Positions 27,367 through 54,323 of a stretch of 54,323 nt of DNA are shown in pieces. The translations under genes and the position numbers were made by a program. Each line of letters opens with the position of its first letter. Position 1 is the stretch's first letter. The notes under the pieces were generated by a model. That model ran no database searches. It worked only from the letters and a program-made list of their open reading frames with translations, and was not told the DNA's origin. Source of the stretch: Clostridia bacterium (GTDB lineage Bacteria; Bacillota; Clostridia; Christensenellales; Aristaeellaceae); contig JAFZPV010000018.1 of assembly GCA_017552535.1 (NCBI GenBank), positions 1 through 54,323 on the forward strand, in the 5' to 3' direction.

Positions 27367-27639
27367 ATGATGTATCCGTTCCTGACGCTGAACGACGATA
27401 CCGAGATCACGCACTCTGAGATGAAGTCAGACGGCCGGGTAAAAGTATATATCGAAACTCCGGACGAAAAGGACGGTTTTCACAACGCCGTGTGCTGGCT
27501 GCCCGAATACAGCTGGGAATGCATCCATGGGTATACAGAAGAAGAGATGTCGTTTTTTCAAAAGCTGATAAGGCACAATGCGCACCTGATCATCGAGTTT
27601 TCGCAGGATGGAGGCGTATTGAATGCCGCAACTGCTTAG
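27367..27639 (+). CDS. Small hypothetical protein paired with a DUF4160 protein
   Basis: About 90 residues, not recognised. It is acidic (TLNDDTEITHSEM, IETPDEKDGFHN) with one compact alpha/beta domain predicted and no membrane segment. The precise start is uncertain: ATG codons occur at 27358, 27361, 27367 and 27370; the AAAGGG at 27352-27357 best suits 27367. It overlaps the following DUF4160 gene by 17 bases, an arrangement seen for toxin-antitoxin and other obligate pairs. DUF4160 genes usually neighbour a DUF2442 gene; whether this protein is a distant DUF2442 relative cannot be judged by eye. Confidence 0.65.
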   Translation: MMYPFLTLNDDTEITHSEMKSDGRVKVYIETPDEKDGFHNAVCWLPEYSWECIHGYTEEEMSFFQKLIRHNAHLIIEFSQDGGVLNAATA

Positions 27640-27901
27640 GATCGGTCCCTACATCCTGTATTTCTGGTCTAACGAGTCGGAGCCGCTTGAACCGGTCCAC
27701 GTGCATGTCGCGGAGGGAAAAGCCGTCAGCAATGCCACAAAGATCTGGATCACCGGTACCGGCAAGGCGCTTTTGTGCAACAACAATTCCCAGATACCGG
27801 AACGCATCCTCAACAGGATCATGAGAGTGGTGGAAGCCAACAGCGCGGAATTCATTCAGGCCTGGACGGACCATTTCGGGGAAACCCGCTTCTATTGTTA
27901 G
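27623..27901 (+). CDS. DUF4160 domain-containing protein
   Basis: The 92-residue protein shows the DUF4160 pattern: a hydrophobic first strand (IGPYILYFWSNE), the HVHV motif in EPVHVHVAEGK, AKIWI-like KIWITGTG, and a C-terminal helix ILNRIMRVVEANSAEFIQAW. The family is small, of unknown activity, and is often found in two-gene operons that have been suggested to be toxin-antitoxin systems. A GGAGG site inside the upstream gene precedes its ATG. The structured repeat begins seven bases after its stop codon. Confidence 0.8.
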   Translation: MPQLLRIGPYILYFWSNESEPLEPVHVHVAEGKAVSNATKIWITGTGKALLCNNNSQIPERILNRIMRVVEANSAEFIQAWTDHFGETRFYC

Positions 27902-27908
27902 GATCAAA

Positions 27909-28231
27909 GGGGCTGTTGCACAGCCCCTCGTTGGAAATGAAATAAGATTTCATTTCCAACGGTTTAGTTTTGGACACATTTGAACCTTTTTATCCGAAAC
28001 GTCAATCTTTCACCAGCTTGTGCAATAGGTTTTCAGTTTTTTCGCCCGGAAATTTCTGCGGAAATTTCCGGGCGAAAAAACTGCAATGTAGCGATTTTTG
28101 CTCTCGGCGGGCAAGCTCGCCTTCGCAAAAATCGCTCCTCGAGCAGGCAAAGCTGGCCCTGCGGATTGAAATTGGAGGGGTAAACCCCTCCAAACCACCG
28201 AGTGGGTTTTCCCTACTTATGCAACAGCTCC
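27909..28231 (+). repeat. Structured repeat of about 322 bp, copy A (complete)
   Basis: The ends are inverted repeats, GGGGCTGTTGCA (27909-27920) and TGCAACAGCTCC (28220-28231). In order it holds: hairpin I (27909-27927, 8 bp); hairpin II, a perfect 15-bp stem with loop AAG (27929-27961); hairpin III, a perfect 23-bp stem with loop TGCG (28034-28083); hairpin IV, GCGATTTTTGC with GCAAAAATCGC (28091-28135) enclosing GGCGGGC/GCTCGCC; and hairpin V, TTGGAGGGG with CCCCTCCAA, loop TAAA (28172-28193). No open frame is convincing. Copies B, C and D are at 44023, about 54133 and 1. It starts seven bases after the DUF4160 stop, in the same sense. Confidence 0.85.
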
Positions 28232-28295: not shown

Positions 28296-28322
28296 TTAGC
28301 ACTCACCTCTTGACAGTGCTAA
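28296..28322 (+). promoter_or_regulatory. CIRCE operator (HrcA binding site)
   Basis: TTAGCACTC, nine bases, CAGTGCTAA: the CIRCE inverted repeat with one mismatch in the right arm. It overlaps the -35 hexamer TTGACA (28310-28315) of the hsp20 promoter, so HrcA binding should block RNA polymerase until heat or protein stress. Confidence 0.9.
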
Positions 28323-28337
28323 CAAAACGAGTATAAT
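28310..28337 (+). promoter_or_regulatory. hsp20 promoter
   Basis: Consensus -35 TTGACA (28310-28315), 16-bp spacer, consensus -10 TATAAT (28332-28337). Strong when not repressed by HrcA. Confidence 0.88.
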
Positions 28338-28446: not shown

Positions 28447-28887
28447 ATGTTGATGCCGAGTATCTTTGCTGAGAATTTGTTCGATGACTGGTTCGATTTC
28501 CCCTCCGTGCGCGATATCGACCGCAGGCTGTACGGTAAAAACGCGGCGCGCGAAATGAAGACGGACGTACGCGAGCACGACGATCACTACGAAGTAAACA
28601 TCGATCTGCCGGGCTTCAGGAAGGAAGACATCACCCTGACCCTTGAAAACGGCTACCTCACCGTAACCGCCGCCAAAAGCCTCGACAAGGACGAGACCAA
28701 CAAAAAGGGCAAGGTCATCCGCCAGGAGCGCTGGGAAGGCACCATGAAGCGCAGCTTCTACGTGGGCGACGCGCTGACCGAAGAAGATATCGGCGCAAAG
28801 CTCGAACACGGCGTGCTGACGCTGAACGTGCCAAAGCGCGATGCCAAAAAGGTTCCCGAAAAGAAACTGATCCAGATCGAAGGCTGA
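28447..28887 (+). CDS. hsp20: Hsp20/alpha-crystallin family small heat-shock protein
   Basis: The 146-residue ATP-independent holdase keeps unfolding proteins soluble. The alpha-crystallin domain spans about residues 38-135: YEVNIDLPGFRKEDITLTLE, GYLTVTAAK, RQERWEGTMKRSFYVGD and the hallmark HGVLTLNVPK. The C-terminal LIQIEG contains the IxI motif used for oligomer assembly. An AAAGGAGG site lies upstream of the ATG. Expression should be under HrcA/CIRCE control, which is less usual for hsp20 genes than for groESL and dnaK. A strong terminator follows. Confidence 0.95.
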   Translation: MLMPSIFAENLFDDWFDFPSVRDIDRRLYGKNAAREMKTDVREHDDHYEVNIDLPGFRKEDITLTLENGYLTVTAAKSLDKDETNKKGKVIRQERWEGTMKRSFYVGDALTEEDIGAKLEHGVLTLNVPKRDAKKVPEKKLIQIEG

Positions 28888-42055: not shown

Positions 42056-44020
<1,965 letters not shown>

Positions 44021-44022
44021 AA

Positions 44023-44344
44023 AGGGCTGTTGCACAGCCCTTCGCTGGAAATGAAATGGAATTTCATTTCCAGCGGTTTGGTTTTTGGAACATTCTGTCC
44101 GATTTATATCCGAAACGTCTGATGATATCCGACCTCAGCGGCAGGTTCACAGTTTTTTCTGAAATGCCTGCGGGCATTTCCGGGCGAAAAAACTGCAATG
44201 AAGCGATTATTTGCTCTCGGCGGGCAAGCGCGCCTTCGCAAAAATCGCTCCTCGGACCGGCAAAGCTGGCCCTGCGGATTGAAGCTGGAGGGGTAAACAC
44301 CTCCAAATCACCTGGCAGATTCTCCCGACTTTTGCAATAGCCCC
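44023..44344 (+). repeat. Structured repeat of about 322 bp, copy B (complete)
   Basis: The ends are AGGGCTGTTGCA (44023-44034) and TGCAATAGCCCC (44333-44344). The hairpins of copy A recur with paired changes: stem I AAGGGCTGT/ACAGCCCTT; stem II CGCTGGAAATGAAAT with loop GGA (44043-44075) where copy A has CGTTGG; stem III tip GAAATGCC-TGCG-GGCATTTC where copy A has GAAATTTC on both sides, although here the left arm lacks part of the outer GCCCGG segment. Hairpin V keeps TGGAGG/CCTCCA. It starts directly after tgt in the same sense. No gene is seen in it. Confidence 0.85.
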
Positions 44345-54119: not shown

Positions 54120-54132
54120 ACACGGCGGAAAA

Positions 54133-54323
54133 ACCTGCTGCAGAAAAGCGGATCATCCGCCAGGTGGCTTGGAGGGGCTGTGCCCCTCCAATTTCAATCC
54201 GCAGGGCCAGCTTTGCCGGCCCGAGGAGCGATTTTTGCGAAGGCGAGCTTGCCCGCCGAGAGCAAAGAATCGCTACTATGCAGTTTTTTCGCCCGGAAAT
54301 GCCCGCAGGCATTTCAGAAAAAA
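54133..54323 (-). repeat. Structured repeat, copy C (cut by window end)
   Basis: On the minus strand this is the right part of the repeat: hairpin V (TTGGAGGGG/CCCCTCCAA, loop CACAG), GCAAAGCTGGC, hairpin IV (with GCAAAAATCGC), and most of hairpin III in the copy B form (GAAATGCC-TGCG-GGCATTTC). The outer right end has decayed to CTTTTCTGCAGCAG. It continues beyond the window. The orientation is opposite to murG. Confidence 0.8.

Follow-up and report, generated by a model that had tools for sequence, protein, structure and literature searches.

Several described classes of bacterial sequence resemble the repeat reported herein. First, the BOX, RUP and SPRITE elements of Streptococcus pneumoniae are small, highly base-paired, present in many copies and enriched between convergent genes, and the enzyme that moves them is uncertain (PMC3049150); the present repeat shares all of these features. 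Further likenesses are the modular build of BOX and the location of SPRITE close to the 3' ends of genes. The same source reports target-site duplications for BOX and RUP, whereas none was seen for the present repeat. In contrast to these three elements, the left end of the repeat lies only a few nt from a same-strand stop codon in most of the called copies, and the repeat spans several genera; the likeness is drawn from features, not from sequence. Second, the MITEs of insertion sequences are likewise short and non-autonomous, with inverted ends that the repeat also carries in some copies, but the repeat has no target-site duplication and no identified insertion sequence with the same ends, and its internal fold is more elaborate. 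Third, REP and REPIN sequences, which accompany RAYT, are intergenic, contain hairpins and differ in sequence between genera, as does the repeat; however, the repeat measures 320 bp, holds six distinct hairpins in a fixed order, and occurs in a genus in which five of seven genomes lack a Y1 match. Fourth, the large structured noncoding RNAs collected in Rfam share with the repeat many covarying helices, but the repeat has no match at gathering score and its departures from pairing are less RNA-like than those of RNase P.

In the present study, a real, large and apparently unnamed family of structured repeats was found from the window, a term used herein for the whole stretch of 54,323 nucleotides that was analysed. 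Two full-length copies lie on its plus strand, copy A at 27909-28231 (323 nt) and copy B at 44023-44344 (322 nt), both recognised by sequence, BLAST and the family profile and 80% identical to each other across the aligned part (BLAST). They have the shared architecture that a first-pass annotation of this DNA had described. That annotation also named two part-copies, C and D, which we take to be the minus-strand stretches at 54131-54323 and 1-36. The former runs from hairpin III to the 3' end, is truncated by the contig end, and was found by BLAST and, with an E-value of 2e-62, in the family-profile search of the window. The latter comprises hairpin I with the beginning of hairpin II, is truncated by the contig start, and scored weakly against the profile (9.7 bits, E 0.0046), although a stop codon, GGGGCTG..CAGCCCC and TCG follow one another in its sequence. 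Since both contig ends of the window hold repeat copies, the contig has been broken at copies at both ends, and several further contigs of the same genome also terminate in a repeat copy (BLAST). Three of the copies in the window follow genes closely. Copy A begins 7 nt behind the stop codon of a 92-aa plus-strand ORF with a DUF4160 domain (27623-27901, with the start picked by the codon-score ORF caller), copy B begins 2 nt behind that of a queuine tRNA-ribosyltransferase gene called on the plus strand (42896-44020), and part-copy D adjoins the minus-strand ORF 37-1020 at its stop codon. Between copy A and an Hsp20 gene (28447-28887), upstream of the latter, a sigma-70-type promoter (12 of 12) and a CIRCE-like operator, TTAGCACTC-N9-CAGTGCTAA, were observed at 28296-28337. 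Because this operator and promoter lie between the two, copy A is probably not the leader of the Hsp20 gene.

Six hairpins (I-VI) were counted in the repeat, in place of the five originally proposed. On the plus strand of copy A, hairpin I (27909-27927, GGGGCTG-TTGCA-CAGCCCC) is followed by hairpin II (27929-27961, 15-bp arms), which with its T-rich tail is terminator-like, and by a linker (27962-28030) that is mostly unpaired in the consensus and carries the conserved motifs AAACG and CAAYAGG in sequence and alignment. Hairpin III (28031-28086) is symmetrised in this copy, so that its usual CTG / CCGGGCG internal loop is paired. Then come hairpin IV (28090-28136, 12-bp outer arms), hairpin V (28136-28165) and hairpin VI (28172-28193, TTGGAGGGG/CCCCTCCAA), the last two placed by the consensus fold with coordinates read from the sequence, and finally the 3' end, TGCAACAGCTCC (28220-28231), which mirrors the 5' end as an inverted repeat. 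A computational check for inverted repeats in copy A confirmed hairpins II, III and IV, as well as the terminal pair GGGGCTGTTGCA / TGCAACAGCTCC, a 12-bp terminal inverted repeat. Hairpins I (AAGGGCTG-TTGCA-CAGCCCTT) and II of copy B lie on the plus strand at 44022-44042 and 44043-44075, the former identified from the sequence and the latter by the inverted-repeat check. The matched changes in opposite arms reported earlier are present in the sequence, namely GGGGCTG/CAGCCCC versus AAGGGCTG/CAGCCCTT in stem I, CGTTGG/CCAACG versus CGCTGG/CCAGCG in stem II, and AAATTTC/GAAATTT versus AAATGCC/GGCATTT at the tip of stem III.

Beyond the window, RNAalifold recovered hairpins II-VI from 48 copies. 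The canonical 5' hairpin was assigned to 38 of 71 copies, the remainder being without it, on the basis of a simple rule under which at least four copies (L008, L015, L068, L075) are wrongly filed; this hairpin covaries between genera (GGGGCTG/CAGCCCC versus GGGGTTG/CAACCCC). Among 45 core sequences from several genera, the arms differ despite retention, with few exceptions, of the hairpin order, of most of the unpaired CCGGGCG in hairpin III, and of the motifs TCCTCG and CTGCGGA. The CCGGGCG motif and the hairpin order occur in other genera as well, and the copies of one genome (G023) are without TCCTCG and CTGCGGA. Several variants were also observed. Approximately 80 extra bases occupy the region of hairpin IV in L025, L030, L066, L076, L089, L091 and L092. 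In L046, part of the 3' arm of hairpin II is repeated again, as from slippage or template switching. A second subtype (L103, L138, L169 and L267, the last being the pgk-tpiA copy of G000) has a hairpin II built of a G-run and a C-run, followed by an unpaired C-run, is without the long linker, and occurs in other genera too. In another genus (G016), an extra hairpin, TTGTCCCTTCGC..GAAGGGACAA, stands after the copies L037 and L057.

The repeat is abundant in some genomes and is concentrated in one bacterial family. In its own genome (2.39 Mb, 76.7% complete), 75 BLAST matches were reduced by eye to 40 places by setting aside arm-to-arm matches and second pieces of one copy; approximately 16 of these places are part-copies at contig ends, so that a pair of places may be the halves of a single copy. 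Several copies in this genome are 93-95% identical to copy A over the full length (BLAST), which suggests recent spread. BLAST hits were obtained in 13 of 60 genomes, the own genome included, comprising all seven of the genus (G000 to G006) and six more from the family. When the core was modelled by covariance from the 45 sequences of several genera, with rough E-values, the model matched 36 of 110 genomes at E 0.001, again with the own genome included, and 35 of these belong to the same family and one to the same order. At least 31 core-model matches per genome were counted in G000, G002, G006, G012 and G023, and several genomes have just one to three, some of them weak. A pattern scan of genome contigs gave at least 99 stretches. 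The 80 that were listed lie in MAG records whose titles read Clostridia, Clostridiales, in one case Lachnospiraceae, and 'Christensenella sp. UBA4379', and those records among them that give a sample in the title came from sheep or goat gut. No match to the repeat was found in plasmid and phage collections. The earlier statement that no named family fits has held: at gathering score, Rfam gave no match in the window or at six further loci, every match of a relaxed search fell below that score, with microRNA models placed on hairpin III accounting for many, and no description of the repeat appeared in the titles or abstract openings returned by literature searches.

The position of the copies relative to genes was determined with our own codon-score ORF caller. 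Among 98 hits with context, a set in which a single copy can be represented by more than one piece, the upstream gene was on the same strand in 68, on the opposite strand in 16 and uncalled in 14. When the 5' end was intact and an upstream gene was called (n = 71), 56 genes were on the same strand and 15 on the opposite strand, and 51 of these 56 same-strand genes had their stop codon no more than 30 nt from the left end of the repeat. On the 3' side, opposite-strand stops lay within 30 nt of the end in 18 of 36 cases. In 50 copies with both ends intact and called, both genes were sense in 20, both antisense in 9, convergent in 19 and divergent in 2; the sense bias between co-directional genes alone (20 versus 9) was not significant (p 0.06). 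The sense orientation behind stop codons is what might be expected of a structured RNA acting in cis in the 3' untranslated region and serving the host behind many of its genes, as a terminator or as an element for processing or stability, and the terminator-like hairpin II with its T-rich tail in copy A points the same way. We consider this explanation unlikely, and further evidence on it is given below. A hairpin matched to the last codons of the host gene around the stop codon was tried and rejected in 19 independent copies (1518 of 2000 swaps as low). It had been seen first in copies without canonical hairpin I (15 copies, 0 of 2000 swaps as low) and again in a redefined discovery set of 18 copies (0 of 2000 swaps as low), and stop-codon stems were found in 25 of 101 cases versus 47 of 377 control genes (p 0.004), several of these stems being hairpin II itself. 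A gene-specific hairpin around the stop codon is unproven and is not claimed in the present study.

The repeat has the character of a mobile element, as the first-pass annotation had supposed, in that homologous sites contain it in some genomes and lack it in others. The genes concerned are presumably argS, pgk, tpiA and a cation-efflux gene, named by us from their translated sequences. The argS gene was found in all seven genomes of the genus; its 3' end carries the full element in G000 and G003, carries a remnant in G001, and is empty in G002, G004, G005 and G006. At pgk-tpiA, with pgk found in five of the seven genomes, G000 and G005 carry two different forms of the element, G001 has a lone hairpin, and G002 and G006 have none. 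G000 and G004 carry the element behind the cation-efflux-type gene, and the four other genomes read do not; the genes compared in the other genomes are homologues 33-56% identical to the query and putative orthologues. The copies thus number in the dozens, are dispersed and highly base-paired, lie outside genes by our own ORF scoring, and are present or absent between relatives, as in small interspersed structured repeats of the BOX type. The occurrence of copies at the same gene in two species (argS in G000 and G003, the cation-efflux-type gene in G000 and G004) is consistent with a host-used RNA in the 3' untranslated region. However, the sites that are empty in the other congeners read, remnants aside, the near-identical recent copies at many places and the copies located between pgk and tpiA argue against it.

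Covariation was strong in the larger alignment. In 47 copies, 97.3% of the cells at 60 consensus pairs were paired, and 30 of the 60 pairs showed changes on both sides. The covariation score was 0.307, compared with 0.113 in shuffles that ignore the relatedness of the copies (0 of 500 as high) and no more than 0.069 with slid partners; further pair types, one of five covariation measures, were not clearly above shuffles (49 of 500 as high). This result favours a structured RNA, and the first-pass annotation had read the matched changes as selection on, or copying through, a folded strand. If each copy were maintained as RNA, GU is expected to be far commoner than AC among the departures from Watson-Crick pairing. 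The repeat (48 sequences) was therefore set against RNase P (29 sequences from the same bacterial family) in the same pipeline, with pairs under 70% Watson-Crick dropped, and the filtered GU:AC counts were 45:53 and 82:23, respectively (Fisher 2.8e-6 on cells, which are not independent, and 0.0015 on columns). In the unfiltered counts, GU did exceed AC in the repeat, as an RNA would have it, but at 110:63 versus 189:23 in RNase P it was far less favoured (2.0e-9 on cells, 0.0004 on columns), and three columns account for 75 of the 110 GU cells, one of these columns probably being no true pair. For states common to at least three sequences, the ratios were 5:3 and 15:2, a difference that was not significant (p 0.28). 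Double-transversion pair changes were commoner in the repeat by cells (177 of 314 versus 108 of 288), and no such excess over RNase P was found by columns (p 0.50). In other words, GU was not clearly commoner than AC in the repeat as it is in RNase P and as a functional RNA at each copy would require. On a careful reading, single copies decay in much the way that neutral DNA does, and the active copies may pair as RNA or as DNA. The part of the earlier reading that concerns selection on RNA is weakened, and covariation alone is no proof that each copy is maintained as RNA.

The other part, copying through a folded strand, has gained from hairpin III. In copy A, this hairpin is a near-perfect palindrome with 26-nt arms that are 96% complementary, and it is symmetrised in three copies (A, L004 and one in L094), compared with 58 distinct asymmetric sequences; the two other symmetrised copies have changed in the opposite way to A. 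The symmetrised stems therefore point to copying through a folded strand, and template switching has been reported to symmetrise hairpins (PMC8794818). Given the low favour for GU relative to RNase P together with the symmetrised stem in A, part of the paired change looks like hairpin-templated DNA copying, i.e. template switching, rather than RNA selection at each site. Carried to its limit, this argument would make the covariation purely mutational, with template switching symmetrising any hairpin and the fold having no role, and the three symmetrised copies, the weak preference for GU and the published mechanism all agree with it. Nevertheless, the same asymmetric loop is retained in the 58 distinct sequences, and the 45 core sequences keep the hairpin order and most of CCGGGCG. 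Because pure symmetrisation would erase this asymmetry and order, a purely mutational origin is rather improbable in our judgement.

The inverted ends of the repeat had been likened to those of transposable elements, and this comparison stands for copy A and is otherwise incomplete. The word GGGGCTGTTGCA appears to resemble the ends of the IS6 family, and the repeat could accordingly be a MITE of a DDE insertion sequence with such ends, as the 12-bp terminal inverted repeat of copy A might suggest. Against this, the 5' part of the terminal repeat is absent or altered in many copies, and no target-site duplication was found in 27 full copies with ends placed by the profile (mean longest match 2.2 versus 2.4 permuted, with the observed value reached or exceeded in 785 of 1000 permutations; one copy, L002, has a 5-base match). 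Moreover, an IS6 origin of the ends was rejected, with an IS6-type transposase (DDE domain) in none of 35 genomes, and a limited search, made up of the word positions in G000 and a screen for split copies, revealed no insertion sequence bounded by them. That screen looked for an autonomous copy with a gene between its halves; it covered 285 hits, flagged only one 190-nt gap and missed the known split copy in L270. A DDE origin is thus doubtful to a high degree.

Mobilisation as single-stranded DNA by a Y1 transposase of the IS200/IS605 or RAYT-like type, as for REPs and REPINs, was also considered. Hairpins with conserved unpaired bases, the absent target-site duplication and the DNA-like paired evolution would all suit such an enzyme. 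A Y1 transposase was found in 10 of 35 genomes, but in only two of the seven of the genus, none of which is complete, and the Y1_Tnp match is absent in G001-G004 and G006; two of these, G002 and G006, are approximately 94% complete and hold at least 31 copies each. In addition, the left flank of the copies is A-rich and has no fixed target word. The Y1 transposase was rejected as the mover, both for its presence in just two of seven genus genomes and because that of G000 sits in a separate, nested IS200-like element, and we regard Y1 mobilisation as very improbable. This element, of approximately 724 bp, lies inside a repeat copy (L270, about 1200-2060, on G000 contig C6) behind a putative clpX-like gene. 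Its tnpA was rejected as marking an autonomous form of the repeat, as the insert of approximately 724 bp has relatives at two other loci over that length. In the IS6-type and Y1 searches of 35 genomes, no carrier or transposase for the repeat was found.

Herein, we propose that the repeat is most likely of the BOX/MITE type, being dispersed, built of several hairpins and non-autonomous. With a probability of roughly 0.6, its copies are non-autonomous dispersed elements of approximately 320 bp that are moved in trans, settle behind stop codons and are then inherited and decay. First, the element consists of six hairpins with conserved unpaired motifs and would depend on an enzyme acting in trans for its mobilisation. 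This enzyme may recognise the fold, including the conserved asymmetric CTG/CCGGGCG internal loop of hairpin III. Second, insertion would take place mostly in the sense orientation, a few nt behind stop codons, where harm might be least. Third, the inserted copies would be passed on and lose their form with time. A bolder version, which we offer only tentatively and think unlikely, is a transposition system not described before. In it, a single strand of DNA or RNA would fold and be recognised via the conserved CTG/CCGGGCG loop of hairpin III, and some enzyme would insert it, always in the same orientation, immediately behind stop codons.

The present results add a large, apparently unnamed family of structured repeats, located at gene ends in uncultured Clostridia and at the points where several contigs of this genome break off. 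As many copies of different age can be compared, the repeat offers a natural setting in which to distinguish RNA selection from DNA template switching as the cause of covariation. Moreover, should the mover prove new, its targeting of sites behind stop codons would be unusual.
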